Below are positions 9,801 through 63,780 of a stretch of 64,000 nucleotides of DNA, one piece after another. Numbering within the stretch: the first letter of the stretch is position 1; each line of letters starts with the position of its first letter. The translations under genes and the position numbers were made by a program. The notes under the pieces are model-generated. The model worked only from the letters and a program-made list of their open reading frames with translations. It had not been told where the DNA came from and searched no databases. The stretch spans positions 2,591,645 through 2,655,644 of the forward strand of contig NW_023998454.1 in assembly GCF_014805625.2 (NCBI RefSeq). Reading direction: 5' to 3'. The stretch comes from Glossina fuscipes. Taxonomy: Eukaryota > Arthropoda > Insecta > Diptera > Glossinidae.

Positions 9801-10010
9801 ATTTCTTAATGTTATTTACATTTTTGTATTATTGATATATGCATGTATAAGCGGGGCTTCATTTATATCATAATAAAAGCTGCAAATTTTTTTTTACTTT
9901 TAGGTGGGCAAAGCGGATTTGTGACAAAAAACTTTACATTATCATGCATAACTTGACTTGAATGACTTCCACCTTTCCTCCAGGAACAAAAATTCATGTG
10001 ATCTTTATAG

Positions 10011-10355
10011 GATATATAATGACGATGATGGCATGCGCACAAATGCAATTAAGTTTTTGGAGCGGATTGTTGGTCTTCAAAGTTACCCTGATAAGGATGC
10101 TCAGAAAAAGGATAACGATTTCTGTTTGCAAAAGGTTTCCGAAAACATTAGAATATTGAAACTGAAGAAGCCTTTAATATGTTCGGTAAATTTAATAGCT
10201 TGCGCCGGCAGTTGTGTACCATAGCTAAGCGAAGAACGAATTTTATGGGTTTTAAAGGTTCGGTGATAGAAACTTTTAAATATTTGAATTCAAATTTGCC
10301 TCCTACTTTAATGGATTCGCAAATCAGCACTGTGAGGAAGAGTTTTAAAATGTAG
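10011..10355 (+). pseudogene. Symplekin relic (N-terminal HEAT region)
   Basis: Symplekin is the scaffold of the mRNA 3'-end processing and histone mRNA cleavage complexes. Here an exon-like piece after a TTTATAG acceptor encodes DDDGMRTNAIKFLE, a signature of the symplekin N-terminal HEAT domain, then SVNLIACAGS. After a one-base deletion near 10212 the next frame reads LNSNLPPTLMDSQISTVRKS, another symplekin signature. The copy also lacks residues normally lying between the first two blocks, and it ends at a TAG (10353) where the family continues with a glutamine. No further symplekin exons were found nearby. Identity is based on recall of fly symplekin; a broken partial copy is the only reading that fits. 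Confidence 0.75.
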
Positions 10356-11288
10356 TTAACTACTTTATTAAAAAATAAGGGATCTTATGAATATCAAGCC
10401 ACCGTCAAACAATTACTACATAGATGAACCTAAAACCTATAAAACAAATCCAAGGTAGTTGAAATAATTTTGAGTGAAAATGTGAACAAATTAACGAACC
10501 GACAAAGTATTATACACAGGTTTATAAAGCTTTGTGAACTCCAACGGAAATACTTAAAAGTCGATATAAGCGCTTGTCTCTATTGACACCCGTAGGAGGT
10601 TCGCTTGTATTCATATTGTTCATAAAATAGGAGATAAATATAATTTATAAATACTGATATTACTTCCATATACTATGTCCATAAATTTGTGCGCTACACG
10701 TAGAACATAAGCGAAGCTTTATTTCGTCAGCCCCTACGAAATGATGTAAATGCAATATTTGAATATAGGTTTGAAAATGTCACTTGCCGTTTATAACCTA
10801 AGTAAGAACATATATTTTTTAGGTTAATTTGCTTATGTTTTTTATCCGAATTTTATTTCGTTTAACAGAACGACGTAAAGAACCTTATATATACATGAAA
10901 ATCTGTTAATATTTTGTAATTTTCTACATCTCCCAATTTGAAACATCATTTCCCAATAATTGGGTGCAAGGAGCATTACATATAAATTTTATTTATCGTT
11001 AGTCAATATTTGAATATAATCGACGAATAATAACAAACAAGGAAAAAGAATTGCCGGCCTTTCCATATTGACTACGGAGAAGGTGGAAATATTTGATGCC
11101 AATCTTTATACTATCAAAGAGACGAAGAAGACACTCATCAGATGAAAAAAGAAAATATATTGGGTATTTTCTTAAGTTTGGGAACTGGTGAAATAATTTC
11201 AACTATCAAATTTAAAATTTTTTTGGTTGTCTTTTCATTAAGAAATCATTGAGAGAAAGCGTTCCGCGCAAATTTATCAGAAATCATT
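10356..11288. other. No gene recognised
   Basis: AT-rich. No continuation of the symplekin frame and no RNA gene visible. Confidence 0.5.
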
Positions 11289-11388
11289 GAGAGAAAGTGT
11301 GCCAATTGAATTTGTATGAAAAACACTAGTAAAATATAAGGAGAGAAAGCATGCCAGTTGAATTTGTATGAAAAACACTAGTAAAATC
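11289..11388 (+). repeat. Two-copy 52-bp tandem duplication
   Basis: Units starting at 11289 and 11341 (GAGAGAAAG, then TTGAATTTGTATGAAAAACA) are nearly identical over about 47 bases. A partial earlier unit lies at about 11248-11288. No coding function is visible. Confidence 0.85.
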
Positions 11389-14618: not shown

Positions 14619-14652
14619 TATAAAAGAGCAGCACATCGCACAGAATCGTTCA
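14619..14652 (+). promoter_or_regulatory. LTR core promoter: TATA box and initiator
   Basis: TATAAAAG lies at 14619-14626 and a TCAGTT initiator-like site has its A at 14652, 33 bases downstream. The same pair is recognisable in the second LTR copy (TATAAAAG at about 18851). The start site is inferred from sequence only. Confidence 0.6.
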
Positions 14653-14721
14653 GTTTAGTGTCATAGCCGCCTGAAGGTAAGTGGGTACGGACAATGTGAC
14701 AAGTCTATTCTTTTTTTTGAC

Positions 14722-15660: not shown

Positions 15661-16599
15661 AAAACTAAATGTAAGGCAAAACAAAATTTTTTATATAAAA
15701 AACAAACAAAAATTTTTATATAAAAGTATTTATAAGAAGAAAGAAAAATATTCATTCATAACAAGACCACGGTAGAAGAAATAACCGAATTAATCCATAA
15801 TTACTAAACCCAAGAATGACCATTTATTACTAAACATCATTCTTCCCAAAAGGTATGGTGTAACATTATCGTAGTCGACCCGTTTAATAATCATTTATGC
15901 TTAGTTTACGCTTTTCATGTAATGTAAACGTACCTGTAATCTAGACAAGATCAGTTCTACATATTTCCACATACTGCAAGTCTAGCTATAACCTAGTTAA
16001 TATAACGCAATCTAGCTATAACACACATTACATATAACTTTAGTAATAGTCAAGTTTAACTCTACTATTTTGCTTAAGTTAGCATAACAATTTATTATAT
16101 AAGTTATTGACCACAGTTCAGTTAAGTCAAGGGTAACGTAAGAAGTAAAGTAAGAAGTAAAATAAAAAGTAACGAAAGAATTAATAAGCAAGAATTAATA
16201 AGTAAGAATTAATAAGAGTTTAAAATCAAGAGAATTGTAATAAATAACAATTCAAAAGAACCATTGATTGTGTTTTCACTACAGTGTAATTTTCCGAACA
16301 AAACGCTTTGCCTTGAAAGCTAACCAGGACTCAATCAATCATATTCTCTGAACGCATTTGACGCAATATTAACTATTAGTTCGTTCCGTACACATAAACT
16401 ATGCGTTTCTAAAAGTTCGGTGCGAACATGACTGCGCTTTAGACGTCTTGCGTGCAAATTCTGCTGGTATGTATATAATCATCGCTACACAGATTACAAG
16501 CGTTATCACCGTTTAATGAAATGTCCGCATGAACAATACCATCCATAGATCGGGAAAGTAATTCATGTATAGCACCAGTCTTATGTTTTCTGCGTAACA
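15661..16599. other. Probable 3' end of the old gypsy-type element; no gene
   Basis: A purine-rich stretch at about 15730-15755 follows the integrase end, and TGTAACATTATCG begins at 15859. These could be the polypurine tract and the start of a 3' LTR. I could not find a matching 5' LTR or a target duplication, so the boundary is unproved. The rest is AT-rich with repeated GTAAGAA/TAATAAG motifs near 16140-16215. Confidence 0.35.
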
Positions 16600-16905
16600 A
16601 ATGTTGTACTCCGCTAGGTCGTGGTGGTTTTAAAGCTAACTTCTTTTACTAGCAATACGTTTATCACGCATCTGACGGCACATCATTAATTCTTAGAAAT
16701 ACTAGAATTTTGGTTTCAGGCGTTGTACTTCCTAAAAAGATTCTTTTTAATTGTTCAGCCAATTCAGCAGGCATTGAATAATTTTCAATGGGTTGTGACA
16801 TTAACAATTCGACACCTTTAGCGTACCACTCGTTTGCTCTTTCAGCTCTTTCCATGTGTTCGCGATTCTTGTTTACAATCTGATTCTTGAAGTGAATATT
16901 TTCAT
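16600..16905 (-). pseudogene. Trio/Kalirin-type RhoGEF relic (end of a spectrin repeat)
   Basis: Trio-family proteins are Rho guanine-nucleotide exchange factors with spectrin repeats, acting in axon guidance. On the minus strand a frame reads RANEWYAKGVELLMSQPIE and AELAEQ, then jumps to TPETKILV and RINDV. A shifted frame continues with DKRIAS and LALKPPRP. The order of a WY-GVELL-SQPIE helix, TPET-LV, RI-DV, a KRIAS helix and a KPPRP linker matches the last spectrin repeat before the DH domain of Trio-like proteins. Frameshifts, a stop and an apparent internal deletion make it non-functional. The family match comes from memory of conserved motifs and needs a search. Confidence 0.5.
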
Positions 16906-17216
16906 TATTTAAATTAATTTAATTTATTTATTTATTCCAGAAAATTAATTATACATACGCTTACTCTACTCATATATTTTATATAGTTTTTGAAAAATGG
17001 GAGAAAAAGTTCAAATTTGTTTAAAATGGAAAAAAACTGCACAAAAGAGAAGTTTGTTAATTAATAAAAAAAAAAAAATTGCGAAAGTAAAGTAATTTCT
17101 CAAAATAATAAGTCCACGGCTTATTAGTATCGTTGCCATTATTTAATAAACGCAAATAGTATTGAATAATAGATGTATGACAAAAGAGCAAATATAAGTA
17201 TTTTAAATTCGTTTAT

Positions 17217-18993: not shown

Positions 18994-19003
18994 NNNNNNN
19001 NNN
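18994..19003. other. Assembly gap (10 Ns)
   Basis: Ten Ns interrupt the sequence just inside the tandem-repeat part of the LTR. Such arrays are hard to assemble, so the real gap size is unknown. Any frame crossing it is meaningless. Confidence 0.99.
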
Positions 19004-26129: not shown

Positions 26130-27061
26130 TTGGCTGGCTGATATCGAAGGTAATGTAGAGAAGACATAACTCTTTCGCGAAGCTATTACTTTTGATGAAG
26201 TGAAGAATGCGCCTGATCAGATTTCTTGCCGTTTGTAGGATTAGGGCTGGATTGTTCAACATGCTGAGCGAACGTTCCTCAAATCGCATGTTCGACTTGT
26301 TCTTCGACAATTGACCTTTAACGAAAGTACAAATTAGAAGCAAAATCTGCCCCTTTCAAGAAGAAGGCAGATTCAATTTATATCCTTTGAAAATATGTTT
26401 GTCTCGGTACGCGGACAACTTGTAAGCACCTTATTAAAGAGCTTTTTGGTAATTGTTACTATCCCTTTGGCGGGTAAATTCAATTTACCTGACCCCAATT
26501 TTTCCAGTTCCACTGTGTCCATTTACTTTTCGGTTTGACTGTCACATTTTCAATGGTCGCCTTCGGATTAGACAAACATATTAAGTAATAATCCTCGCAG
26601 GCTTGTTTATCGAATAAACGATTGCGGTCCCAATGAAACTCCACAGTATGACAAACTTAATCAAAAACTCTTGTATAATTTCAATTAAGTTTTGTGGTGA
26701 AATCTTCCATATTTTGAATAATATGCTTACCTTTTATTTCCCAAAATTGCTGCGAAACGAACGCTTCAACTTCCGTTCGCAGTTGGTATTTGCCAACTAT
26801 TATAAGATATCAATTTGACAGCAACTTTTTCCGAAAATAAACGTTGTAATCTGATTGTCTGAAAGCGAGCTATAGACGAAAGTTCGGAACATACATCTAC
26901 CACATAATTTGGGTGCTTATTTGGAGTTGTGAGATTGCGTAAAGCACGTCTTATCGCTGTGTTAGTAATTTCGGCTCGATAAACATTTAAGTTTGGCTTT
27001 TAAAGCCGATATTTTCATCTTCACAATCACAATCTGTCCATATAATGAGAGTACGCTTCAT
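26130..27061 (-). pseudogene. DNA topoisomerase III alpha relic
   Basis: Topoisomerase III alpha is the type IA enzyme that dissolves double Holliday junctions with the BLM helicase. Minus-strand frames give, in order, LIIWTDCDCEDENIG (Toprim motif, normally TDCDREGENIG), RPNLNVYRA-type sequence, RFQTIRLQRLF, a GTAAGC-flanked WEIK exon end, VEFHWDRNRLFDKQAC, KPKSKW, VELEKLGSGKLNLPA, then CPRTETNIF and NPTNGKKSDQAH. The catalytic tyrosine of SYPRTET is a Cys codon (26415-26417) and two Toprim residues are changed. Stops and shifts occur throughout. Some exon borders survive, so it began as a genomic rather than an mRNA copy. The zinc-finger C-terminus was not found. Confidence 0.85.
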
Positions 27062-29744: not shown

Positions 29745-31901
29745 TTATTCTTCGTCTTCTTTACGATGCGATTTTTTCTTATCACTCCGACTAGAAGATG
29801 ATGATGTCGTCTTACTAGAGCGTTCACGTTCTTTTTCACGCGATTTTGAACGACGCCGTGATTTCTCGCGACTTCTAGAACGCTCGCGTCTTGATCTACG
29901 ACGGCTAACGTTAGTATAAATTTATACCTGAATAATCCAACATTTACCTTTCTCTCTCTCTTTCTCTTTCACGATCACGTTCTCTTCGTCGTCGTTCCCT
30001 CTCTTCTTCAGAGCGCTCATTGTCCTTTGGGTGCAAATAAAGTAGATATATGATAATATGGAAATAACGTTTGTACTTACATCAATTTTCTCATTTCTAT
30101 CTCTATCTCTCTCGCGTTCTCGATCTCTATCTCTATCCCGTTCGCGCTCACGTTCTCTATCTTTATCATTCCGTTCCTTGTCTCTATCTTTGTCCCTTTC
30201 TTTCTCTCTCGATTTGGACCGCCTCCGAGATTTCTCACGGCTTCTCGAACGTTCACGTCTTGACCTTAGACTTATATACGAAAATACGCGTTTAACATTA
30301 AAAATACAAATTTTTGTGTCTAAATACTGCTTACCTTTCACGTTCCCGTTCTTTTTCGCGTTCCCAATCTCTTTCACGACGACGTCTATCTCTTTCTTCT
30401 TCTGCTCTATCCGGAGGACCGTTAGGAGCCATAAGACGTGGCGGACCCATAGGAGGCATTCGCATAGGCGGACCATTTCCTGGACCCATCATCATTCCCA
30501 TCGGAGGCGGTGGGCCCATATTCATATTGGGCATGACCATGTTTGGCATCATTGCTTGCGGATGTGGTGGACGCATCTGTGGAGGGGGACCACTCATTTG
30601 CGTAGGAGTAACATTCATTTGATTCGGCGGAACACCCGGTGGTCCTGACATTTGCGGTGGCGGTATAACGTTGGGACCAGGGGTTAGCTCTTTTATGCCA
30701 GTGGGAACCCAATTAGGATTTTCGTTGCCCCACTGTGATTCTTGAGTGGGTTCATAGCCATAATCAAATGGATCGGGCTCTTGATAAAAAGGATCATCTG
30801 CCGGGCCAGGGCCATTAAAATTCAGTGGCATTTGCCCCGGTCGTGAATATTCGCGGCATTCAGCAGTCATTACCTGAATAGCATTCTCTTTTGTGCTAGT
30901 TGTACTAATAGGTCTGGGAACACGAGGCATTATACCAAACCTAGACGGAGGTCCTTGATGTGGACTGGGCGGAGGCATTAAACTTGGCAGTGGCATTGGG
31001 ATATGCTCGTTTAAAGGACCTGGTGGTGCAGATCCCTGCTGTATAATGCTTTGCTGCAGTCCGACGGGTGGTGGCTCTTGCAATAATTGTTGTCTGTCGG
31101 GCAGTGGATTAAGATTTTGAGTTAAACTTGCCAAACCAACACCACTTTCCACAACGCGAAATCGTTTTTGTCTTTCACAATAAGCTCGCCATGTTTCCTC
31201 ATTAAAGCCATAATTAAAATAATCTGTTATATCAGCTCCGGGTTTTCGCCAAGGCTTCTCTTCTAGTGAATCTATACTAAACTCATGCGCTGCAACACCA
31301 TTTATAGAGCCAACGCCTTCAAAATCTTCCATTGAAAATTTACCGCCTTGAGGGACGGGTTTAGTTTTCTCTTGACCAGGTGGACCAGCCAATAAATTAG
31401 AACGTTGCTTGATATTATAAGTGCTAGCAGCAGCTTTAGTGTCACCGATGACTACATTAATATCATCATCTGAATCATCATCATCATCCACATCATCATC
31501 CGAGCCGGCGCCTGTTTTTTCCTATTAAACACATTCATAAAAAAAGGTTCATACACATAAATGTAAAAATGAACTACTTGATCCTCCTCCGCTTTCACTT
31601 CATCAGTAGTAGTAGTAGTAGCGGTAGTAGCGGCCACTGCTTCTTCATCTTCCTCCATTTCATGAGCAGGATCTTCAAATTCAGCCATATCCGCCTCTTC
31701 TTCCTCTTGATCTTGCTCATTATCCACATTGTCATTACTAACATCGCCACCTTGGACGGCAGCTAAAGCCTCGTTCTCTGCCTTACCAATCACCGAGGCA
31801 GCAGTAGCTACTGTTTCGCCAGCACGTTCTTCTTCATTTGTTGTCGAATCGGGATTTGATGTGCCATACAACCAACTATCTTCGTTCGTATCATCTGCCA
31901 T
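29745..31901 (-). CDS. Fip1: Fip1-like pre-mRNA 3'-end-processing factor, 5 coding exons
   Basis: Fip1 links poly(A) polymerase to CPSF and stimulates polyadenylation in the nucleus. The coding exons are 31901-31578, 31521-30335, 30264-30081, 30024-29948 and 29895-29745, all with GT-AG introns of 50-70 bases, joining to a clean 640-aa frame. Residues 1-130 are acidic. The Fip1 motif KPWRKPGADITDYFNYGF lies at about 197-214. A long Pro/Met/Gly-rich region follows, then an RE/RD/RS-rich tail ending HRKEDEE. This is the family architecture of the long animal form. The start is the first ATG of the acidic frame. It is transcribed away from the fabp gene. I see no defect. Exons 3 and 5 encode almost the same RS-rich peptide. 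Confidence 0.92.
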
Positions 31902-32749: not shown

Positions 32750-35700
32750 ATGACTAGTTGCTGGGAAGGAAAAAAATATAAATTAGAAAAAAGCGAAAAC
32801 TTTGATGAATACATGAAAGAATTAGGTAAGTTTAAGCATTTCATCTTTCCGATAAAAGACTATGAACAATTATCAACCGTTATACCGCTGCTATATTTTT
32901 TAAACGAAAAAAATAAAAAATACAAACCGCAAGATATACAATTGCTAGAATTGCAGATACGTCGAGAACAAAAGCGTGTGTCATAGTTTCCTTTTTTTAT
33001 ATCGATTGTCTTGACCCTTGCTTCATCATATTTGCGAAATCTAAAGTTCGCGCATGAGACGTCTTAAATTTCCAGGTACAGCTTGCTTTATATTTTACAA
33101 TTTTAAATTTATAAGAAACACTAGAACTAAATGCCGGCCGGCTTTTATCTTTTTTTCATTTTTACATAAATATTTCGTTTAAAGAAAAACCTGTTTAAAA
33201 TTTTCGTCCAGTTTTTTTTTCTTTTTTTGATAACAATTGGTATAATTTTGCAAAGTTTTGATTCAAAGAAAAGTAGAAAGCAATTTTCTTTTATTTTCTT
33301 TTATTTTGAAAGGTTAATTTGAAAATTATTTCGTATTCGTTTGATCCCGTCGATTCATATACGTTTTTTGGCGTTTGGGACTAATTACCTTTTTTCTAAT
33401 TGGCTCAAATATATGTTAGAAAAAGTTCGGCCAAAGGCAGTCTGTGTACAATTAGCTCCATTTAACTTTTATGATATGTTTTCCCGTAGTCACATTTAAT
33501 ATTCGTAGGATTTTAAGTTATGAGTATATGATCCGTGGTGGTCGTTGTGTTAGATCAACTAATATTCTCAGTCAAGTGATAATCCGTATAGTGTGATGTT
33601 ATTAAAATAGTGATAGTTAAGTAAAAAAGTGATAGTTATTAAAATAATTGTAGTGAAAAGTAATGGGGTCGTTGATTTTGCTTTGCATTGCTTAGTATAT
33701 TAGATTCAACGCGTGTCGAAAATTCCAAAGTGCATTTACTTCAAGTTCTATATTGAACATTTTTTTAATAAAAATAAACGAACTCATCAGAAAATGTAAT
33801 TGTTGACAATAGCATAGAAACAAGACTGTACATGGGAGGTTTGCAATTATTTTGCAGATACACATGGCAATGACAGCTAAAAAAGAGACTACAAGTCGTA
33901 AAAACGTTTAGTTGAAGATATCCTAACGTAAAGAATTGGAAAATAAATAAAAAAGCAGAATCATGGACTTGAGTGGGAGTGGGTTTTGGAATTATTGGTA
34001 TTATTAACCTACCGACGTGCGACCAGCTAAATCGATGTACCAGAATTTATATCAAATAAAAAATGTGTATAAAGTGTTGCAAAGAAAGATGGGCCTAAGG
34101 ATAAAATACATTTGAAACCCTAAATACATTTTGAAAGCCTAAAAAGCCTATTGATTTGTGTTAAACAACTTCACGAAGGGATTAAGTACATTATGGTATC
34201 ACCATAATCAAAAATTGCAAGAGAAGTAACACAACTCTAAAACTTTATCCATATGTCGTTGATGGGCGTAGAAATCGATTCATTCATTTAAATAGTATAT
34301 CTTATAAAAGCTTGGAAGTGGAACGCATATAGGAAAAGCCGATGGGTAACGGTATTGAATGTTGCATTTATCCAAATAACTGATGCAAAATTTATCTTAG
34401 CAAAGTTTTGTTTAATGTACATGTTTTCTTCCTAATTGCTAGAAATTTATTTGAAACTCAAACGTAGTGATCTGAAAGCCAATATTTTCCCTCTTTAGTA
34501 AGCTATTGTTCATGTCTATCTATTTTAAAATTAATCTGTAGAAGCATTTCGAAACTGTGTTAATCGGCTGCATGAGTCTAACTTATTGGAGATTCCCTTG
34601 ACAAAAATGTTTTTTATTTTTCAAAAGTAATAAAAAGTTGGTGTTTTGTTCACCCCTCATAAATTATAGCAGAAAAATTTGAACGTATATCCTATGGGCG
34701 AGGCTTTAGTAGCTGTACAAAAATAAGAAAAACTGACCACGCCTACCCAATATTATGGTGCATCAACATATAAATCTTTTTTCAATGCTTTTCTAACGCT
34801 CAGAAGCAAGCTTCAAAAAAAGAAGAAGATGAAAAAATGTACGAAACAGATCAAAAAACGCGCCTTTAACACACCTACACATCTATACAATCAAAGCTGA
34901 GGACAGCTTTGCTTTCCGCGCCTTTTGTTCGTTGCTCATAAACTACAATAGACCCACGATATGAATTTCCACAAAATTATTCTACAAAAATGGAAGAAAG
35001 TCAGCCATGCTTATTCAATATTATGCATCGTGCAAATTTATGCTAGATTGTCCGCGAAGAGTTCTCTATGCACAGAATAACTTAAGATGTAGATTTTTTT
35101 CCCCTTTAAACTTTTGCTTCCTCAACTTGCGGATTAGGCTTGTGCTTCTTATCCGTATCCAATACATTGCTTTCGACGTACGTTATTAGTTCGTCAAAGT
35201 TAGATGGCAAAGCTTTAACCATCACTTTTAATAATTAATCAATTAATTAATTTAAAGCAAATAGATCAGTATGAGTGAATAACTCTACCCTAGATGTGTA
35301 ATAATTTTATTAAATATTTTGGGTGTTCCATTATGAAGTACAGTAGTAAGTATTTAAGGGGGCCAACGTTGTATTTTGTTTTAACCGGTTAGTAATACTA
35401 TGTCAAACATCAAAGTATTACGTGTACATATTATTTATTTTATTGATGATGGCGTACATTTTTTAAACGAGTTTTGTAAAAAGTAAGTGGTATAAATATT
35501 AAAAAATTTTCGTTTCAATCGAAGATAAAATTCTTTCCCATGGACTTTGTATTTAGGGACTTCATTTACGTCTTGTTGGTTTCATATCTTCAATTCTTTA
35601 TAATACACTTGAACTTTAATATTTCGAATAAATAATTGCAAGACGAAGGTTTTATTTACTTATTTATTTTATTTATTAACATTAAGTTATAAACTTCAAA

Positions 35701-36482: not shown

Positions 36483-36514
<32 letters not shown>

Positions 36515-39500
36515 TGTATTTACATTTATTTACAATGAAGTTGACCATCGCTGTGTGTTGGCTGTTGGATATGTTGGGCATCAAAAGCATAAGATCAAAA
36601 CTTAATTTATTTAATCAATTTTGACGAGAGAAGTCATATGATATGAACACTAGCGTGTGCTAGTGTTCATAAGCGCACAGTGATGGGAAAAAATTCTTCC
36701 TCAGCCTTGTGTTTTCATTCTATTATTATCTTGAAACATTTAATAGTAAAACGTTAATAGTTAATAGTTCCCCATAACTATTAATTAATAGACAGGAAGA
36801 CATGTTTAAAAAAGCTGTAAAATTAAATCAACTTGTAAATTTTTTATTCAGTCTTTAAGAAAGCGAACATGTTTTACTGGTCGCACGCTCGCTACGCAAA
36901 GAAACGTGATTGTCAAGAGCGAATGGCAAAGGTGGTTTTCAAATTCGCATCGGTCATGCGTTGTCCATGCATTGAAACCAGGATTACGGTCTCAACAAGT
37001 TGTCCAAAAACTTACGCATTACATTTCTTTTCAATACTCTCAATGCAATCGCACTATAATTACGTGTCATGAAGCAAACTTCTCGAAAGTTTCTTACGGA
37101 TGGAAGTCCGATTCAACAACACTCCTCTTGTCTTCTTTATACTTTTTTAGTTCCATTTATCGTTGTTTAATTCAGTTATTCATTTTATAATCCAAGTTTC
37201 TTAAGACTTAAATGCGTATATTGCAATCACTAACGCGGGTTATGTGCGGGGAATTAGACAATGCTGAATTTTCAATTCGCTTAGTCACACACAACCATAC
37301 ATGCAAATATACGAGTGCGAGTTTTGTCAGAATTGGTGCCTTGATAGAATGAAATGATTGTAGGTCACCATTGAAAGTCAATACAATTATTAAAAAAAAA
37401 ATAGTAAAAAAACTATGCGCGTATATTATCCATTCAATTCTGCGAAGTAAGTTCCAAAATATGTCTTAAGCGGGTTTCTTGGTTGCTTTGTAGCTTACAC
37501 AATATATGGTACGCGGATATATTGATTATTATTATTATTAAGTTTGTAGGAATGCATGTAAAAAGGATCTAAGGTAGATCGCCTTTTTAAGATTCAATCT
37601 CTGAATCGATTTAAGATTGTCTGCACATCAGGCGGTCTTGTTTTCCTTTGGTCAAACAAGTCGCACTTTTTGGGACATTACGACGGAATTCGGACGAAGG
37701 ACGAATGCTATTGAAAATAATTTGGACTGGACAACGTTTTCAAACATTTCACACATAAGACTTTGTTTCAAAAGGTCATTTTATAAATAACTGTATTAAG
37801 CGAAGTGATGCGGTATAGTTAGTAGCAGGCCGTGGTCCAGTATAGTGTTTATCAGTAAAATTTTGCTCGATATGTGAGCGAATAATTTCTCGAAATGCTA
37901 AGATGAATCGGCTATTTCTGGCCAGAATCGTGGTAATATTTTACTTTACTTACTTACTTACTTACTTACTTTACCCACTTTTTCACATAAAATTTATGTG
38001 AGCTTCACTTTTAATAAAAATGTAGATTGTTTATTATCCATTTTTTTACCTTTGAAAAGAACGTATAGATTATATACCCGGACGGACGAGACTATCCATG
38101 CACAGAGTTTCTTCGATTTTCAAATTTTTGAAACTTCACTGCCGTCATAGCTAAAATACTAGAGTATATAATCTGAAAATATTTGTATTAAGTTTATTCT
38201 ACGATAAACATTCCCCTGAATGCAAAAATAAAGATATCGGCTTCAAAGTCGCCACACATGTCAGAAATTCATGCATGCATGATATAGTATTAAGAATTGT
38301 TTAAGTCAACGTAAAGTGAGAAAAAATGTGCTTTTCCTCTTTACAAGCAGAAAAATGGCTACAATTGGCCACGGCGACACTATATTATAGAGTATCAGTA
38401 GAAATTTCATTCGTTCATGAAAACGTCTGCAACATAAACGAGGCTTCAGAAACGATATAAAGAATATATATTTTTCATTATCAAGGAGAAAGTCGATCTG
38501 GACATGTTTGGTTTTTAGTCTGTCCATGTGGACTGGTCTCAAAAATGAAGATATCGATTTCAAATCTGGTAAAAAAGTTTAAAAGCAAGAAGATCGGTAT
38601 AACCAGCATGTGAAATCAGCCAAAAATTTGCCGCATTGATTCAGATAATGGGGCCTTGCTTCTAGGGTCAATCAAATCAATATTTTAGAATTATTAGAAA
38701 CTTAGTCAAACTCCTGCAGCTCATGTGGTAAATCGACTACAAACAAATGCTAGACATTCCGATGCCACTTTTTGATTCCGCTTTTTGTTGCCAGCTGTTG
38801 AAAGTGTCAACTTTATCTTAAACAAATAATAAAGGCTCAAGTCGAAAAGTTTATAATACCGTTAACGGTGGAAATCACTCTATGAAACAAAAGCTTTTGC
38901 TTATGTTCCTATGGCACACGTTTCATCCTGCTGTATGAAATTTTTTGATAAAATTTTTAATGAAATTTTAAAAAAATATAAATTTGCAACTTTTCTTATA
39001 GAATTTTGTAATCGCCGCGCTCATAGTGCAGCAAAAAAATTTTATTTTCGACCACGCCTATCCAATATTACAGAATACAGAAATTTCATTTTTTTTCTTA
39101 TCGCTTCTTGGCCTTTATGGCTAAGATCAAAGTGTAGTATCTGTTCTTTTTTTTTTCTTTGAGATTCTCTAAAGAAAAGGATCGTAGATATAAAGGATTC
39201 AGCCACAGCCGAGTATTATCTTCTTACTTGTGAGGCAATTGCTTATAAGATCAAAAGCCGATAGCCTTAGATGCTAGTGCTTTTAAGAGTTTAGTCTTAG
39301 AATTTATTTCTCTGGCGAAATTAATAATAATAATAATAAAATCAAGAGCCTTTCCTCCTTCCTGTTTGCGACTTATCGAGTGGATGTAATAAGTAATGGT
39401 GATATTTGGCCAAGCCTTCTATTAGTCATGTTGTCAATTATCTGAGGAAATTTTTTGTGTGTTTTGTTATTAATTTTAGAACGATGTCGTCGTATATGCT

Positions 39501-41308
39501 GCAGTTTTTTCGCAAAAAAAAATAATGAAGATTTCTAAAGCTTTAATACGCTTATGCGGGGAGGTCATTTTGCCCCATTAGTGCATATTCACCGCATTGT
39601 TTAATGCAAATATGTTTGCATAATGGGTTTATAGAAATGCAAAGAGCACACAAACGTATCCATAAATATCTGAATAACGGCAGTGGCTTAGGAATTTGTT
39701 ATGCATGTAAGCAAAACCGTCAAACTGAAGTTTTTTGCGATCACGTTATGAATGATATTTATTATAATAGTTAGAGGAAATCAACAATAAAAAAAAATTC
39801 CTTTCAAGTGTAGTCTTTGCGATGAATAGGAGTGATTAAAAGGAAGGAGGGAGGGGGTCGTGCAGACAATATGCAATTTATTTGATTTATTATTTTTCTT
39901 CTTATTGTAATTTGATACAATTAAATGTGTCAAAATGTAAAAAAGAAGGCGTTGAAATCAAAATGTTTCCTTAATTAAATTAAATTGAATTTGATTTTAT
40001 CTTCCTTTGAGAGCTGTTCTTAAACGTTCAGGCACACATATCAGTTGTATTCTTCCACTATGATATGCACGAGTAGAGACTTTAGTTTAAGAAACTTATC
40101 TCCCTATAGATTTATTTGTGAACTAACTTTTTCTCAATATTTGTCTCTTTAGCTGGCCCTCTTATGAACTGCAGCGTTTAGTTGAAACTATATAATCCAG
40201 AAATACAATTTTGTGAATTTATTTCCAAAATGCATCACAAATTCTCACACTTCCCAAGAACGAAAGGTATTCAGCCATCTAGCCGTACTTTTCTTCATTC
40301 CACGCTGGAAGGGGCAGGGGAACTTTGTTGGTTATTTTAATTTAATTTTTCGCTTGTCGAAGCAATTTCAGTCGAAGCTTAGGCAAAGTTCAACCTAACA
40401 CATATAAAATTACTTTGAATCAGCCACTTCTTAAACAAAATATCGATAGTTCGCAAATGTTACTGAAAGATTCGATTTTGAGCTCGTGTTTCAATTTTGA
40501 TTTTCCCACAAAGGATAAAAGGAAGTGAACTAATCGAGTCCAACTAGACCTGTTTCAATTATTACTGTCAACGTTGCTTAGACTGCACTTAGAGTGCTAT
40601 CTTGAATATCTTTTACGTAAATTAACCACGTGGAAGATTTAGAGGTGGGGCGGAAAGGTATAATTTTTTGTAAGATTATGTTTTTGCGTTTGTTTAACCA
40701 CAGTTTGTAATCTAATATATAATGTAGTGTAAAGAATAAAAAAACAAAAAGATTGTCATAAATTGTGGTTTTCAGTTTAATTACTATTCGTTCAGTTAAC
40801 TATAGAAATATCATATATCTGTGGAAAATGTGTTTTTTTGCCAAGTTTAACCTTGAATTTCTTTTCATTCATTTTAAACGTTTTAACTGTTTTCATTAAT
40901 ATTTTTATTTGAAGGTGTCGGCATGGTTTTACGCAAGATGGGCAACTCCGTTAGTCCTACCGTTGAATTGAAGCTAGATGGTGAAAAATATTCACTAACT
41001 ACCTCATCGACCTTTAAAACCTCGACCATTACGTTTAAATTGGGCGAGGAATTCGATGAGGAGACCTTGGATGGTCGCAAAGTTAAATCTATTTGCACTA
41101 TGGACGGCAATACATTAATACAAGAGCAGAAAGGTGATAAGCCTTCCAAAATAATACGCGAATTTAAAGAAGATGAGTTAATTACTGTAAGTGTTCAATA
41201 TGTTATGAAAATGGCTTAAAAGTGTGATTTTTTCTTAATTACTTTTCTAATCCACAGACGCTTACCCTTGGAGACATTAAATCGGTCCGTGTGTACAAAG
41301 CGATCTAA
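32750..41308 (+). CDS. fabp: Fatty acid-binding protein (intracellular lipid-binding family), 3 exons
   Basis: This small cytosolic beta-barrel protein carries fatty acids or retinoids. Exons are 32750-32825, 40915-41186 and 41258-41308. The joins are phase 1 (Gly codon) and phase 0, with GTAAGT donors and GAAG and CCACAG acceptors. The product is 132 aa, the usual length. Exon 1 encodes [20 protein letters not shown]. Exon 2 starts [19 protein letters not shown] and includes [16 protein letters not shown]. Exon 3 ends SVRVYKAI, with the Arg-x-Tyr pair that binds the carboxylate. The first intron is 8.1 kb and the second 71 bases. The frame is intact. The mitochondrial citrate carrier downstream is also its neighbour in Drosophila, as I recall. 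Confidence 0.95.
34655..34745 (+). repeat. Dispersed inverted repeat pair, copy 1 (partner 51745-51840, minus)
   Basis: The words CTCATAAATTATAGCA, AAATTTGAACGTATAT, CTATGGG and TGTACAAAAATAAGAAAAA occur here on the plus strand. They occur in the same order on the minus strand at 51745-51840 with substitutions. The adjoining GACCACGCCTACCCAATATT also recurs at about 39050. Confidence 0.72.
36485..36513. repeat. (AC)n microsatellite
   Basis: An uninterrupted run of about 14 AC units in the fabp intron. Confidence 0.97.
36643..36670. repeat. Perfect 12-bp-arm palindrome with a 4-nt loop
   Basis: ATGAACACTAGC at 36643-36654 is exactly reverse-complemented at 36659-36670 around GTGT. It could extrude or fold as a hairpin in RNA. 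It is not followed by a T-run and has no assigned function. Confidence 0.9.
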
Positions 41309-45396: not shown

Positions 45397-46543
45397 ATGG
45401 CTAAGCCAATACCAATGCCCTTTTTTCAAAGACCTTGGCTGATGCAGCAAGGAGCAGCTGCAGCGGAAGGCGGCAATAAAGGTTTAAAAGGCATTTTAGC
45501 GGGTGGCATAACAGGTGGCATTGAGATTTGCATAACTTACCCCACCGAGTACATTAAGACTCAGTTGCAGTTGGACGAAAAAGGTGAATATTCCCTTTAT
45601 ATAGGCATAATAAGTGACTCATAAGTATAACATATATCTAGGTGATCGTAAAAGATATAGCGGTGTTACGGATTGTATAAGAAAGACTGTTATTCAAAGA
45701 GGTTTCTTTGGTCTCTATCGAGGCTTGAGCGTTTTATTATACGGCAGCATACCGAAGACGGCCAGCAGGTAATGTTGTGTCATTTTGTCGCCAAACATTT
45801 GTTACAATGTCGTTATTTCCTATATTCAAGATTTGGAGCCTTTGAAACTCTAAAAGACCACATGGCTGATAATGGTCAATTAAGTATTTTCTCTAAATTA
45901 CTATGCGGCTTAGGTGCGGGCATATGCGAAGCTGTGATTGCCGTAACACCTATGGAGACTATCAAAGTCAAATTCATTAATGACCAACGTACAGCGAAGC
46001 CTCAATTTAAAGGGTTTTTTCATGGCGTTGGACGTATTATTTGTAACGACGGTAAGTATCCATTTTTCGATATATTACAAAGAGTCATTTGCCAGTCATT
46101 CAGAGCGTTTTTTCCAAAAAGGCATCGGTGGAATTTACAAAGGAGTGACAGCTACTATCCTAAAACAAGGTTCCAATCAGGCTATACGTTTCTTTGTTGT
46201 GGAATCGCTTAAGGATTCATACAAGGCTAAAAATCCCCAAAAACCGGTTCCTAAATTATTAGTAGGAGCTTTCGGTTTTATAGCTGGCGCTGCTTCGGTT
46301 TTGTGCAATACTCCCCTGGACGTAATTAAAACACGCATGCAGGGATTAGAAGCAGCTAAATACCATAGTACAGCCAATTGCGCTTTAAAAATTTGGCATA
46401 ACGAAGGCATTTCCGCCTTCTATAAAGGTACTGTACCGCGCCTAAGTCGTGTCTGCCTGGATGTTGCTTTCACTTTTATGATTTATGATTCTTTCATGGA
46501 TGTATTCAACAGAGTTTGGTACACAACAGACGAAATCAATTAA
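45397..46543 (+). CDS. sea: Mitochondrial tricarboxylate (citrate) transport protein, 4 exons
   Basis: This SLC25-family inner-membrane carrier exports citrate in exchange for malate, feeding cytosolic acetyl-CoA for lipid synthesis and histone acetylation. Exons are 45397-45583, 45642-45768, 45831-46051 and 46104-46543, with short GT-AG introns (52-62 bases), giving 324 aa. Three Solcar repeats show the signature P-x-[DE]-x-x-[KR] motifs: PTEYIK at about residue 49, PMETIK and PLDVIK. The conserved [31 protein letters not shown] and [15 protein letters not shown] segments point to the citrate carrier (Drosophila scheggia, human SLC25A1) rather than other carriers. The start ATG gives the usual short N-terminus. 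No lesion is seen. Confidence 0.94.
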
Positions 46544-47753: not shown

Positions 47754-47911
47754 CTCTAAAAGAGAGATTGTCTTAACCGTAATAAATAAAGTGCTTTGGT
47801 AACCGTATTTGTGGAGCTCGGGAGGTTTTTATAAACTAATGCTTTATGTGAAATCAAAGCAAAAGCAATCATTCAATCATTCTTTTATATATATTTTATT
47901 TTTATATACAT

Positions 47912-48475
47912 TTATTTAATATAAAAGGAATTGTTATTGGTTTCCTGATTGTTTGCGATTCTTTTTCGTTGACTTGGTCGCTTTTGCTCTTCTATCACAA
48001 CACCGTATAAATACATGTCGTAATCGTCTAGATTATTTCGTGAATGCTCTGCCCGCAAAGTAACCAAAATCTCACCCAGGTCTTTAAAGTGACCTGAGTC
48101 ATTTAGATTCAATTGATCCGTGGTCGAATCCAACCGTCGTTTCTCCATTGCCATATAAGTGGCATAAAGATGAAGGAATCTGGGAACTGGAGAGCTAGCA
48201 TTCCGCACTAAATGAGCAGCTTTATCATATTCACGTACATCAAAGTAACTTTTAGCCAGAAAATAATTATCATATTCTTTCGGTGCTATGCCTTCCAGCA
48301 TTTTAATACCGAAATTATCTTTTTCATCCTCGCCGTCAATATCCACGTCCGCAAGGCCGTGGCACATTTCAGCTAACCATTTGACGCTGTAATCTAAACC
48401 ACGTTTCTGACATTCCACTATACTCTGTCTTAACTCTCTTTTAGCGTCGAGTACGTTAAAGAAGTCATCCTCCAT
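47912..48475 (-). pseudogene. Cdc23/APC8 N-terminal piece fused to a short tail
   Basis: Cdc23 (APC8) is a TPR subunit of the anaphase-promoting complex. The ATG at 48475 opens 187 clean codons. The first about 162 match the APC8 N-terminal domain (DAKRELRQSIVECQKRGL, SVKWLAEM, DNYFLAKSYFDVREYDKAAH, PRFLHLYATYMA, LYGVV). The family has roughly 550-600 residues, so all the TPR superhelix after LYGVV is missing. Instead, 26 basic and polar residues (IEEQKRPSQRKRIANNQE...) follow. The DNA for that tail recurs at 49240-49301. Either an internal deletion joined the start and end of the gene, or a dispersed repeat replaced the rest. Expression as a short protein cannot be excluded because the frame is open. 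Confidence 0.75.
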
Positions 48476-49189
48476 TATTTAACAAGTTTTAAATCTCTAG
48501 GAAAAATCTGGAAAAAGGAAAATAATTAATACATAACTATAAAGAGCGAGTTATTAAGCGCTGCTTGCTCGAAACCGAACTGTCATGTTGATCACCTCAT
48601 ATTAAAATTTCCGCTATACTTCTTAAGAAGCAGCTGAGAAAAAGTCGAATATAAAAGTTGAAGACGATGAAGGGAGTGGAGAGGTGGGATAATGCTAATA
48701 TTGTATTAAGTCAATGGGTTCTTCCTCAGGATGATTCAAAGCAATTTTTATGTCAACAGACCGAAACAAACCGTTTTAAAATCTCGAAATACTTGGCAAC
48801 ATTTAAACATCGGGCATTCGACTTTCAATGTTCCAATGATGTTTCGTAAAAATCGCTTGTTGTCATTAAACCCAATATTGAATTTTAGGTCACCCAATGA
48901 ACTCTGTGAGACACCTAATAGCAATTTATTATTATTATTACAAACCGAGACTACAACACCTGAATTAGGGGACCAATAACCCAAAACTCAAGGTATTACC
49001 AAAAATATAACCAAAAGCATCCGTCTAGTTGGAGCTTATAGCAATAAACACTTTTTCAACCGCTTTGATTTGTCATTGGGAAAATCAAACTGGCCTTTCC
49101 TGTTGCTGTATATTAATTTATACAATTTTTATTTAAATATAAATAGTTTTATTTATGCTTTATTAGCTTTATTATATATTTAAAATAGA

Positions 49190-49301
49190 TTTATTAATAT
49201 ATATAAAAATATATATAAAAGAAATTGTTATTCTTTTTAATGATTTCCTGATTGTTTCCGATTCTTTTTCCTTGACTTTGTCGCTTTTGCTCTTCTATCA
49301 C
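49190..49301 (-). repeat. Second copy of the Cdc23-like tail and its 3' flank
   Basis: The plus strand TTTCCTGATTGTTTCCGATT to TTCTATCAC (49247-49301) matches 47940-47998 with about five differences. The AT-rich stretch before it resembles 47880-47937. The match stops exactly at the codon where Cdc23 homology begins in the other copy. The minus-strand frame here reads EEVIEEQKRQSQGKRIGNNQE. Confidence 0.8.
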
Positions 49302-50979: not shown

Positions 50980-53575
50980 TGTATTTATATTATCTGCTGC
51001 CCGTAAACGAATATTACGCAGTAATTACGTGCATTAAGATCACGCATCGATTTAATATCACGTTTGTGGCTAATGGCCAAAAGATGTAAGGTTTCTAACT
51101 TGCGACCATCCTATTTTAGATCAGGTAACAAAATGAAACCGGTTTCTGGGTCGGGATCCTCATAAACAATGCGCTCCACTTCTTGTATACCCACTTGAAA
51201 TAAAACAAATAAAATGTAAAAAATGAAACTAGGATCAGTAATATTATTATCAACAATTTTCAACGATATAATAAAAACTTATAAAGGATAAAAATTGGCG
51301 CGTCTAATTAGAAACAAGTAAGGAAATGAAAAGATGCCCTTTTATAAACCGTCACTGTTTTTGAAAAAAAGGGAACAATATTCGATAATATTGTATTTTC
51401 TGTTTTTGCAGAATTATTTTTGTGGTAATTTATATTGTGTATTTGTTGTAGTTTATTAGCAACGAACAAGGAAAGGGCGTTCTCTGTTCTGGTTGTATGT
51501 CGTTGCGGCGTTGTAAGCAGAATATTCCTTAGTCTGTTTCGGCCATTTTCAAGCACTTTTGCAAAAAAGCAAGCGATATCTTCTTTTTTATGAATTAGAG
51601 AATGTGTCCGTAGATACTATACAGCTGGGCACACTAACATGATTAGGCGCATTCCGAATTTCAAACTGGCCAAGAAATGATTTACTTATGGAGTCTTTGA
51701 AGCTTGCATTTGAGCGTTGTAAAGGTAATGAAAATTAAATTTTAATAGCAGTCAATTTTTCCTATTTTTGTACACCTGAAATACTTACTACATTACCCAC
51801 AGCATATACATTCAAATTTTTGGAGATTTATGTGCTGTAGTTTATGAGTAACGAGCGAAAGAGGAGGTATTCTTAGCTTAGATGCTACTGTCTGTAAGTG
51901 TGTTCTTCGACCACTTTTGCTTATTTTCAACACTATTTTGCGTGCAAGAACTTCCAATGTTTCTGCTAAATCCGAAGCCGATAGATTCATTTTTGCGGTT
52001 AGGAGAATGTTTAGATTTTGCGCAGATGGTCATGCTTAAATCGAAGTAGTATTTAATGCTGATTAAGAATATGTATACTTTGTGAGATCTCTGAAGTATA
52101 AATCAGGATTAAGCAAAGGAAAGTCTACAGCCACGAACCGTTTGTAAAAGTTGCGTGGATTATGTCCACCTATCTATTTTTACCGATAACTTTGCTACTT
52201 TATAAAATTTTAATTAGCTACGAGGATCTCAGAGTTATTATGGAAATCGAACAAAAGCTTGGATCAAGAAAAGTCAAAAAAATCAAATTAATGGAAGAAC
52301 ACGAAATATGTAAAATAAAAGCGTCGTATACAGCATAAAAGCCAATCCCACAGTCTGGAATGAAATATAAATAAGGCATATTAATATACCGTAAAAAAAG
52401 GCCTCAATACAAAGTCAGTTGAATATAGGTATACTCAGAGGTGCAGCTCTACTGCTGAACATTGCGATAAAAACAAGATACACCCGTTTTAATGATGCCA
52501 CCTTTCTACTTTTCACGGCAGCGGGAAAATCTAAATTTCAATGATTGAAACTAGCGTTTGGATGAGAGAAACCAATAGGTCGGCCCTTAGATACCATACA
52601 CTATCTCGCCTAGTACAGTTATTCACTCCTTTCCGTGATAATATAGTAAAAGTTACACATTATTTCCACGTAAAAGCATAGTTTTTCATGATAACCCGCA
52701 TATTTTCCGGCCTTTTGTCTTATACAAAGTAGACTTATTCATGCCAATTAAGTATATCAAAATACTCTTACTCAGCAATTTTTGTCACGAAATATTGAAA
52801 ATTGTAAGTTTTCTATATAACGACTTTTCAAAAAAAAGGAGTAGTCGAAAAGTTGTCCAATCCAAATCGTTTTCAATAGACTGGGCCAGAATAAGTCAGT
52901 ATACCGAGTGTTATCAAAATATCTCAAAAACTGCGATTATACGTTGAACACTAAAATACATGAGTATGCGGGCAGGCCAGCTTAGACAGAAAATGATTCT
53001 GAATCTTAAGATTGTCTGGATGTCACGTATATCTATCTGCACGCATACGCTGTACAACAAATGGTGTACGACATAAATGCATAAACGGCATGGGCTGCAT
53101 ATATATTTTTATTTTATGTATTGAAAACTTACCTCCAATGAGTGTTGGCTAGTGCTTATGTAGGGCAATGTAATCTCTTCGTAAAGTTCGGGGGATTCAC
53201 TTATTATTATGAATTTCTGGCAAACGGTATATTTTTCAATGTGCTTTTGTGAAGCAGGATAAATTACAGTAGTTTTTACACCTATAAAATCAGCAAAGGT
53301 AAAAAACGAAAATTTTCATTAACATGCACGTCGTAAACAAACCACTGAGTTCAACTGGAGGAACGCATTGATAACTCTCATAAATGTCGTCAATGAATTC
53401 TGTTTGAACTTTTAAATCGCTGCAAAAATATGACATCAGAGAAGTGTCTTTTACATTGTTCTCGCAATTTTTTTCTAATAATTGTTTTTCAGATTGGTCT
53501 GATTCAGTAGCAACCTCGCTTTCGCGAAAGGCTTGTTTCTCAAATATAACTACGGCTTTATCAGTGTCATGCGTG
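50980..53575 (-). pseudogene. Scavenger mRNA-decapping enzyme DcpS relic, three exon remains
   Basis: DcpS hydrolyses the cap left after 3'-to-5' mRNA decay. Minus-strand exon a (53575-53343) encodes DKAVVIFEKQAF and VQTEFIDDIYESYQCVPPVE and ends at a usable GT donor. Exon b (53281-53133, between TATAG and GTAAG) encodes GVKTTVIYPASQKHIEKY and ESPELYEEITLPYI. Exon c (51193-50980) encodes the VERIVYEDPDPETGFILLPDLK block, where the next codon, normally Trp, is TAG (51113-51111), then LETLHLLAISHKRDIKSMRD and, after a shift, LLRNIRLRA. The catalytic HIT motif (HxHxH) was not found. The introns survive, so this is a decayed genomic copy, not a retrocopy. Confidence 0.85.
51745..51840 (-). repeat. 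Dispersed inverted repeat pair, copy 2 (partner 34655-34745)
   Basis: The minus strand reads CTCATAAACTACAGCA, AAATTTGAATGTATAT, CTGTGGG and TGTACAAAAATAGGAAAAA in the same order as 34655-34745. It lies inside the DcpS-relic intron. Neighbouring 51440-51480 and 51830-51860 share GTAGTTTATNAGNAACGA words. Confidence 0.72.
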
Positions 53576-56190: not shown

Positions 56191-56239
56191 ATGGGCGAGC
56201 GTACCAATAGCTACGCTATCCCTGACGTCGCTAGGCATA

Positions 56240-60190: not shown

Positions 60191-60260
60191 TAGATAATTG
60201 GGAAATGAGAATTTTAAAAAAGCATCAATGACGGAGTGGGTACGGGCTCTACGTTTAGCG

Positions 60261-60540: not shown

Positions 60541-62353
60541 GGACTGCGTGGTGGAGATAAGATGTCTTGAGATGCAGCCAGGCCGAAAGCCGAACCGAAC
60601 ATCATGCATTGCATTACTGTTATTCAAAAATGAATCAAGTTATTCCTTCATAATTAAGCTCCGTAACCTTGGGGACATATGAACTTCAGGTGAAGGCGTC
60701 AGCAGACAAATTTTACTACTAGCAAGAAGAAGGTGAAGAAGAGTAATATGTCTATTCTAGATTAAATTTTGGAGTAATATTCGCATTGTTCAGATACTTA
60801 ATATCATAAGAAAACATTTTGAAAAGGCTTTATACTATAATATTCTTACGAGAATTGCATATGTGCTGATTTAAGTTTTCATAAAAACTGGTCAATTTTT
60901 GAAGAAATAAAATTAAAAAGGAAGGAAAAACCAAAGATACAGTCACGACGCTTTACTTGTCTCATGCAGATGACGACTAGCGAAAAGATTAACAACAATT
61001 ACCAGAAATTTAGCTAAAGAAGAGCTTAACACAAATAGGGTCACTAATTTATAAAACAAGACAGTTATGGGGAGTAAAACGTTGCAAATATAAGTTCCTG
61101 TAAATAATTTGTAAATAGATCTCCCAAGAGTAGTATATAAATTCAATACTATTCTAAAAACCGCAATTCGGCGGTACGAACTCAATTTCGAAAGGAGCTG
61201 AATAAATAACCTAAAATCACGAAAGACATTTTATGTTGCAATATAATACACGGAATGTTCGCCGCAAACTAATATTGACGTTTACATTTTAAATGACTTT
61301 GGTTAACAAACGATGTTTTCAATTTTAAGATCGCTGATTATATATCGGCCGCCAAATAACGAGCCGATGGCTATACAATGTTAGTGCACTTGTTAAAAAG
61401 CGCGGTGTACGTAGGCGTATTCAGTTTCTGATATTATTACCATCAAAATTTCCAGTCCACGATCTTTGTAAATACCATCAGAAATAGAGCTTTAAAGCTC
61501 TAACAAATGCAAAGTCTATTTTTTACTACAATTGAAATGATCGTACTGCGAGTAGTGTCCTAAATCTAGCTTTCATCAATACAATTATTGTGTTCCTTAA
61601 CTAGAAGGGTTTCGATCGGTAAAAGTCAACAGTCTCCCATTTTATTTCTAAGTTGCAACAATTCTGTGTAAAAAATAGAAAATTTCATTTCCCGCAAATT
61701 CTTAATCGACGGCCTACATGACGTGACGTGAGTGTACCATCCGACTTGTCATCAATTCGAAGGACTTTGCAATCTGAGACCAAATCTTTTAGAATCAGCT
61801 TTACCAGGCTTTCTCACCAAATCCATGGTGGAACCCATCCCTGTCAATGCTCTTTCGCAAATATCGAAACGTAAAGAAAAAAATTGGTAAATATGCAAAT
61901 ACCACCAACTGCTTTGAGTGTATGAAAACAGATTGAATTATTTTCAATTCCTCTTATTAATTTTAATAACACGCCCTCTAGCTTATACGAATTGGCATAT
62001 CTTGTATACAACTCGGTAAGAGAATGCTGCTGCCCGTTGCGACGGAATCAAGTACGACATGGTTAGAGCACTTTCTGCGGGAAGCTTGGCCGTCTTAGTC
62101 TATGCAATTAACCATTTGTTCTTATTCCTAAAGCGAATAAAGCCTTAAATGTTTTAAACAAGTTTAGGACGCAACCAAATGGTTGTTTATAAATTGATAA
62201 AAACCGGAGCGCAACGAAATCAGTGCAAAAATGTGTGTGCTGTACGTATTCCTTTCTGGAAATCTTTTTCGCTAATGTTTCAGCCTTTTTCATTTTCATT
62301 CATATTCTTGCGTAGCTTTTTTTTTTTCTTGTCCCCAATTATTAAAAACAAAC
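60541..62353. other. No gene recognised
   Basis: AT-rich with short frames only. About 62165-62200 is an inverted match to part of the 20.87-kb tandem repeat (AACCAAATGGTTGTTTATAA). Confidence 0.5.
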
Positions 62354-63330
62354 ATGTTCAAGTTTGATGTTCGGGTTGACGAGTGTGATAAAGATGATAA
62401 TTTTAATGACACTTTCTATCAAAAAGATTCTCGAAGTTAGTAATAATAGCGTTGTTTGGTTGAAAAATTTCAATAAATCCACATTTCCTGCAGCTTGTAC
62501 CAAGAGGAAACTTCCTCACTTAATTGCCACGAAGCCACAGAAATTTTACCTTCGCAATCTATTCTGGACAATGTCGACGTCTATCGTCTGCAACGTCATA
62601 CTAAAATATTGAAGAATGTTTGTATATCACATTTAAGCGGCGGTTTTTTATTAGGGGACATAAGCAATGCCTCTAAGTCAGATATTAAGAAAGCCCACGA
62701 CCAACATTCTGATTTAGTGCCAGGCGTTTATGAGGGTGGTGCAAAGATCTGGGAGTATACTGATGACATTTTAAATTTTATGGCTGAAATGTACTCTCAA
62801 GATTGGTGGACGCCCAAAAGAGTACTTGACTTGGGCTGCGGTGCTGGTTTAGTGGACATTTACGCCTACAAACAAGGGGCTCGTGTCGATTTTCAAGATT
62901 GTGTATGTGTAAGGTTACATATTGATATTAAAAGACTATTAATTGAAAATTTCTTTCTACTCATTTGTGCAATAAAGATGTTTTGCAGGTTATTACTATA
63001 CCTAATCTATTGATCAACATCACCGAGCAAATACCGTTAGAGCAAGTCTTCGACAATGTGAAATTTTATTCAGGTAATTGGAGCGAATCGACAGAGTCCT
63101 GCAAAGGCTCCTATATTTATGATGTTATTTTAACCAGCGAAACTATATACAATCCCAGAAATCAAGATAAACTGTTACGTTGCCTAAAAGATAAATCAAA
63201 ACTGAACGGCGTCGATATTTTGGCTGCGAAAACTCAGTTGGTGGAGAACTCCATCAATTCGAAGCACTATTAAACGCAGAAAAATGTTTCAACTATCAGA
63301 TTGTATGAGATAGAGCAGGATGCTAATCGA
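62354..63330 (+). pseudogene. METTL18-type histidine protein methyltransferase, 3' end broken
   Basis: METTL18 is a SAM-dependent enzyme that methylates a histidine of ribosomal protein uL3. A likely exon 1 (62354-62435, MFKFDVRVDE) joins via a GTTAGT donor and CCAAG acceptor to exon 2 (62505-62902). Exon 2 encodes HSDLVPGVYEGGAKIWEYTD, the SAM motif VLDLGCGAGL and FQD. After an 86-base intron, exon 3 (from 62989) gives VITIPN and DVILTSETIYNP. Near 63234 the frame breaks at AAKT. The next conserved block (VGGELHQFEALLNAEKC) lies one frame over, and another shift near 63308 precedes YEIEQDANRS. Motif I has Asp in place of the usual Gly after DLGCGAGL-x. The C-terminus is lost unless these are assembly errors. 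Confidence 0.7.
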
Positions 63331-63538
63331 TCCGAGCATATTATGCAGAAAAGGGGAGCCCTGTGTAGGAAGGGATCTTATCTTATCTTATCTTTCTTCA
63401 TTTTTCATTTATTTTAAGATAAAACTGTTGAGCATAAGAGGTCCGACCATAGCCGAATATGATGTTCCTACTTGTTTTTCATATAAGGAGATGAATGCCA
63501 TATAATATATTATTAAATTACGAACTTTAAGCGGCTCT

Positions 63539-63780
63539 ATGGAGAAGCCAAGTTTTTCATCCCCTGAAATGTACAATTTTATGTTTGATTTCATAGCGGA
63601 TAACAATCTAATGGACTCGAAGCAGGCTAAGCTCTGAAAGGAAATAATTGTACATAATGTATGCTTAGTATCCTTCACATAACATCAAAGAAGATTGGAA
63701 ATTGGAAATTAATCAATTACTGACGAAATATCCAACGGAGTATTTTTAGTACACTATGCGAAGGATGGTCATTACTTAGC
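63539..63780 (+). pseudogene. Unidentified coding-looking relic
   Basis: An ATG at 63539 opens MEKPSFSSPEMYNFMFDFIA and DNNLMDSKQAKL up to a TGA. The frame resumes with KEIIVHNVC and, after a shift, WKLEINQLLTKYPTEYF. The residue composition is gene-like. I know no family. It may be the last part of a gene that starts outside the METTL18 relic or an independent fragment. Confidence 0.3.

Follow-up and report, generated by a model that had tools for sequence, protein, structure and literature searches.

The DNA examined here is a 64,000-nucleotide window of the tsetse fly Glossina fuscipes genome (C29:2591645-2655644, on a contig of 4,528,525 bases), which holds pieces of the genes for symplekin, topoisomerase III alpha (Top3-alpha), Cdc23, DcpS and METTL18 lying among three intact genes. 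An earlier note made from the sequence of this window had counted seven broken copies of nuclear genes; these five stand, a RhoGEF-like reading is unconfirmed, and a CREC relic was not found. Genome searches on the 366-Mb assembly (709 contigs) show that the window is not peculiar: relics of four of the five genes, symplekin being the exception, are present elsewhere too.

The Cdc23 piece lies at 47996..48475 on the minus strand and comprises the ATG plus 159 codons, 95.8% identical to the native gene at C234:11402923-11405605. Over its 480 nt it carries 20 differences from the native sequence and neither a stop nor a frameshift, so it is better described as truncated than as broken. It matches Pfam ANAPC8 (E 1.7e-32) and is 90% identical to the G. 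m. morsitans protein P0001. Fused to the piece is a tail module (47932..47995, minus strand), and its other end is joined by a left module, some 150 bp long (48476..48625, minus strand). Both modules are shared among copies and lacking in the native gene, and the left module has no match in the DNA upstream of that gene. A second copy of the tail module, without Cdc23, occupies 49190..49301 on the minus strand and is 80% identical to positions 47895-47998. The unit abuts the end of a different dispersed repeat (47824..47931), which has an inverted copy at 42336-42450; this repeat end has 15 further genome matches at 90-96%.

A 741-base query taken from the window gave 46 matches in the assembly, with the best 40 of 250 candidates scored. 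The native gene accounts for one match and the neighbouring repeat (query positions 1-112) for 15; five more are short stretches from loci counted through other matches, and the remaining 25 merge into at least 24 non-native loci that carry the piece whole or in part. This is the new observation at the locus: the Cdc23 piece is not a lone pseudogene but has spread to about two dozen loci. Breakpoints were compared with the native DNA (L001) in nine loci, including the window. Six coincide exactly with L001 positions 1495-1980, one spans 1490-1979, one ends at 1967, and one begins at 1557. At ten sites the majority of copies share a state derived relative to the native gene, each in 80-100% of the copies covering it. 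Eight of these changes are synonymous and two are not, a split that fits divergence before capture or divergence of the native gene under selection. Because the ten sites are common to copies over 24 loci, they indicate one capture, and together with the exact ends at six loci they mark the piece as an amplified captured fragment.

The changes that arose separately in the copies follow a neutral pattern. Codons free of gaps hold 321 copy-specific changes, of which 81 are synonymous, 229 are nonsynonymous and 11 create stops, against expected values of 82.6, 225.9 and 12.5, which yields a proxy of 1.03 for the ratio of nonsynonymous to synonymous rates (dN/dS). All 324 copy-specific changes divide over the three codon positions as 109/110/105. 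A stop or frameshifting indel is found in 18 of the 24 loci; of the six without a lesion, four are partial, while the other two, in the window and in L029, are complete or almost complete. Since the changes fit neutrality, the copies are dead passengers rather than a gene, and selection on the Cdc23 open reading frame was rejected on the same pattern. The window copy is open over its 480 nt and continues to a stop within the tail, as a working chimeric gene of about 188 residues would be; with neutral changes over 24 loci and lesions in most of them, we regard such a gene as very improbable.

Other matches to Cdc23 are of a different nature. A second, older kind of relic, covering residues 192-375 and thus outside the captured piece, lies at C244:414961-415724 and has nine stops in its main block. 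Matches of 24-29% on C1 and C2 are probable paralogues and were left out of the relic counts. In L058, an open frame at positions 1-561, 6 kb from the Cdc23 piece, encodes a PARP catalytic domain (E 9.3e-72) and may be a gene or a relic; a transposase-like frame in L058 reached only E 0.025 and is not claimed.

Adjoining the Cdc23 unit is a Brca2-like fragment (48631..48972, plus strand) that was absent from the earlier note. In the window it belongs to a head-to-tail, Cdc23-free copy of the right part of the unit (48629-49301). Within the DNA fetched, Brca2-like sequence lies near nine of the 24 Cdc23 loci, and in eight of these nine it sits to the right of the Cdc23 piece on the opposite strand. 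A protein read from L065 was used as a query, with the best 73 of 469 candidates scored, and matched at least 113 places that merge into at least 65 loci, both counts being lower bounds; the short window piece is not among the matches listed in this search. L067 contains two frames of 410 and 628 residues and BRC repeats that score above the Pfam cut-off (E 1.6e-8), although the L067 frame that carries them had no match in the PDB. A short BRC piece by itself is not significant (E 0.33), Pfam gave no match to a mosaic Brca2-like reading, and a search with the BRCA2 helical-domain family found no match, its controls likewise giving none. A peptide with a MADF-like appearance had no Pfam match, and the MADF idea was dropped.

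The relics of Top3-alpha, DcpS and METTL18 keep introns. The Top3-alpha relic (26195..27055, minus strand) covers residues ~133-409, contains stops and frame changes, and is 78.6% identical to the native DNA over 959 columns that span two native exon breaks. A merged-frame reading matches the solved TOP3-alpha structure 4cgy (E 3.5e-44), and the G. pallidipes Top3-alpha protein P0003 matches the relic in a tblastn search (E 8.6e-40). The DcpS relic consists of three blocks on the minus strand: part of a first exon (53323..53568), a second exon with splice signals on both sides (53133..53282) and part of a third exon with a TAG stop (51024..51185). All three are 90-96% identical to G. fuscipes P0243, and the relic is interrupted at the same places as the matches to native DcpS, residues 145-154 and 195-203. 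The METTL18 relic (62354..63305, plus strand) is 75-79% identical to P0242, carries a frame change and has lost its C-terminus. Matches to the native METTL18 gene are interrupted at residues 28-29 and 157-166, and the relic has intervening DNA at both places, thus keeping both native introns; the first is a clean GT-AG intron. A second METTL18 copy at C242:203823-204822 has an open frame of 295 residues, 79-83% identical to P0242 over two main blocks.

Because introns stand at their native places in all three relics, these are copies of DNA and not of mRNA, as the earlier note had proposed; the intron test covers these three, the Cdc23 piece falling within a single open native stretch. They are not processed pseudogenes, in which introns are absent, and instead resemble duplicated (unprocessed) pseudogenes: intron-bearing partial copies that carry lesions while a native gene exists elsewhere. 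The Cdc23 and Brca2-like pieces differ from this class in being multi-copy and dispersed. The native genes, whose mapping had been called for, lie on C234 (Cdc23 and METTL18), C271 (Top3-alpha) and C412 (DcpS). Top3-alpha relics, which vary in extent between loci, match on C29, C254, C245, C231, C126, C234 and C169; a 41% match on C1 is a probable paralogue and was left out of the relic counts. DcpS matches lie on C29, C239, C202, C677, C34 and C205, and METTL18 matches on C29, C242, C14, C202 and C169. Divergence from the native sequence is 4% for the Cdc23 piece and 21% for the Top3-alpha relic, the latter including introns so that the two are not on one scale. As these values are unequal, the relics seemingly did not come in one arrival, which suggests that they accumulated slowly in the window and not together.

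We then consider where in the genome such fragments lie. The earlier note had offered a Y, neo-sex or B chromosome, or heterochromatin that keeps duplicates, as the setting. In keeping with a special region, few Brca2-like loci lie on C1, C2 and C234, the three longest contigs among those of examined length: 4 of the 65 loci, against 36% of the genome (p 3e-8, with the contigs picked post hoc). The relics, however, are genome-wide, and Cdc23 pieces also occur on C234 and C2. Moreover, the window contains Fip1 (29748..31901, minus strand), intact, single-copy in the assembly, and 99-100% identical to G. fuscipes Fip1 over the first two blocks. Because the sole Fip1 sits here, a Y or B duplicate is unsupported, and the whole group of such settings is improbable. 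Used as a control gene, Fip1 has no relic elsewhere in the assembly, its only other matches being four weak ones (34-57%), all in the repetitive C-terminal half. The two remaining intact genes are open through normal introns, in agreement with the three intact genes first described. One has three exons (32750..41308, plus strand) and is presumably FABP; the other has short introns (45397..46543, plus strand) and is taken by us to be the mitochondrial citrate carrier (sea).

Taken together, these observations make it likely that the window is an ordinary region of a G. fuscipes chromosome that collects unprocessed gene fragments over time, like other places in the genome. A native Cdc23 stretch was joined once to other sequence and is now present, complete or partial, at 24 loci, where the copies decay neutrally. 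The modules may have been moved and shuffled by a putative vehicle, either mobile DNA or mosaics that rolling-circle or template-switching replication copied, and some of the "genes" unique to Palpalis tsetse flies would be such relics.

Several points weigh against this explanation. The Cdc23 piece of the window is still open. The 15 loci outside the breakpoint comparison are mostly partial (70-420 nt), and the DNA flanking the Cdc23 units further to the left is of at least three kinds. For the unit, neither terminal repeats nor target-site duplications nor a Helitron end are defined, so that the label mobile is founded on the number of copies and on the breakpoints they have in common. On C1, C2 and C234 the Cdc23 piece shows no significant scarcity (5 of 24 loci, p 0.14). 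The genes counted were chosen for having a relic here, and a genome-wide rate cannot be drawn from a single control. Finally, a symplekin query of the assembly matched the relic in the window alone, with neither a native copy nor a further relic.

That symplekin relic (10012..10421, plus strand) covers residues 167-318 of 1171; it contains a TAG stop and a frame change and lacks about 18 residues. It matches Pfam SYMPK_PTA1_N in two frames (E 1.5e-7 and 3.9e-4) and is 60-64% identical to G. fuscipes symplekin P0130. The protein database does contain an intact symplekin of this species, 1171 residues long, and because the query nonetheless matched only the relic, the assembly may be incomplete or masked at the native gene. 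Within the assembly, symplekin therefore does not have the native copy elsewhere that a duplicated pseudogene should have. The earlier note had named the absence of intact orthologues as evidence against its relics; symplekin alone shows this absence, the natives of Cdc23, Top3-alpha, DcpS and METTL18 lying on other contigs. The missing symplekin gene would also agree with real genes whose lesions arose in sequencing or assembly. This is scarcely credible, as the symplekin relic spans only about 150 of 1171 residues, the natives of the other four genes exist, and a protein of another species, G. palpalis P0246, matches the DcpS relic along with two blocks upstream that lie outside DcpS.

As for the vehicle, capture and dispersal hold for the Cdc23 piece, in line with the transposon capture raised in the earlier note; a Helitron is not shown. 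Spread of the Cdc23 and Brca2-like pieces by Helitron (rolling-circle) elements is possible but somewhat unlikely. Unrelated gene pieces in opposite orientations form one unit in many copies, and Helitrons are among the three main transposable-element subclasses in Glossina, according to the available part of PMC6721284. Against this, a strict scan of 10 unit loci, in which either strand was read for CTRR preceded by a hairpin, gave two matches, neither at a unit edge, the edges being incompletely known. The search for shared boundaries thus yielded common breakpoints without a Helitron end. The left end is not constant either: on the left side, which was examined, the common part stops 52-58 bp before the anchor, and no constant 5' end was found among the copies. 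Helitron gene capture as described in the consulted portions of work on maize and rice (PMC2575219) and on the bat Helraiser (PMC4778049) likewise places fragments of several host genes at many loci; the present units differ in having no Helitron end, and RepHel was not searched for. Host coding pieces are also passengers of repeats in DNA-transposon transduplication, as in C. elegans Turmoil-1 (PMC2572040, seen in part). In our units, by contrast, no terminal inverted repeats are defined. Pack-MULEs are a further instance of transduplication by DNA transposons.

Scattering by segmental duplication and DNA-repair patching, with no transposon, is about as doubtful. It would account for variable ends, patchwork joins and Top3-alpha relics whose extent differs by locus. 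The complete Cdc23 copies, however, share one breakpoint pair and ten derived sites, which requires one founder copied many times, and patching alone does not explain this. A single carrier for all relics of the window was rejected, as repeat pairs found by self-comparison never join the flanks of two relics. A repeat of ~200-400 bp is common to some Cdc23 loci and to three loci with Top3-alpha relics (L020, L022 and L024). In L065 a ~400-bp repeat (L065:4928-5340) lies between the Cdc23 piece and its tail, and because it splits the unit there, the shared repeat reads as an unrelated insertion.

The RhoGEF-like reading (16338..16918, minus strand) came from reading of open frames; its two longer frames have no Pfam match, and it has no PDB match. 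For CREC, a crude six-frame scan with an EF-hand pattern found a sole match in the window, inside Cdc23. A mariner (Mos1-type) transposase lies in two overlapping frames at 22628-23364 on the plus strand (HTH_48, E 7.6e-14; Transposase_1, E 4.5e-22). At 475-3732 on the same strand, several frames belong to a non-long-terminal-repeat (non-LTR) retrotransposon with a zinc knuckle (9e-4), an endonuclease (E 5.5e-23) and a reverse transcriptase (1.1e-6), this end of the window being rich in guanine plus cytosine. A further repeat occurs twice, at 14243-14739 and 18438-18968, the copies being 78% alike and the second adjoining an assembly gap of 10 N (18994-19003).

Two relics of this kind stand in protein databases as genes. 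P0241, the G. fuscipes METTL18 protein model at this locus, is 97% like the window copy; it has shifted splice sites at the second intron, has lost several residues there and lacks the part after residue ~254 of P0242. In G. palpalis, the record P0246 (222 residues, named "m7GpppX diphosphatase") has five matching blocks in the window, two of them (54357-54298 and 54073-53975) upstream of the DcpS homology. Since it matches these non-DcpS blocks too, the same relic is apparently present in G. palpalis and recorded there as a gene. In the part of their paper available to us, Attardo et al. 2019 (PMC6721284) describe 2,223 orthology groups, with 4,948 genes, as restricted to G. palpalis and G. 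fuscipes; 603 of the genes have significant database matches. Relics recorded as database genes, like P0241 and P0246, are a plausible part of the 4,948 Palpalis-specific genes. The words pseudogene, BRCA2 and Cdc23 are absent from the main text of that paper in the form available, and among the papers listed in a literature search, with most subscription journals outside it, none reported such relics in tsetse flies. A bolder proposal, which we consider unlikely, is that a Palpalis mosaic repeat keeps capturing host-gene pieces, has spread a BRC-bearing Brca2-like piece to at least 65 loci, some with open frames of 400-628 residues, and would explain a good part of the sub-genus-specific genes; some open copies may then make protein.

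A fly gene-fragment family that goes back to a single capture and has a neutral clock and two dozen copies brings the identification of its vehicle within reach. Relics and amplified fragments recorded as genes also offer a concrete, testable reason why gene counts may be inflated in two tsetse vectors.

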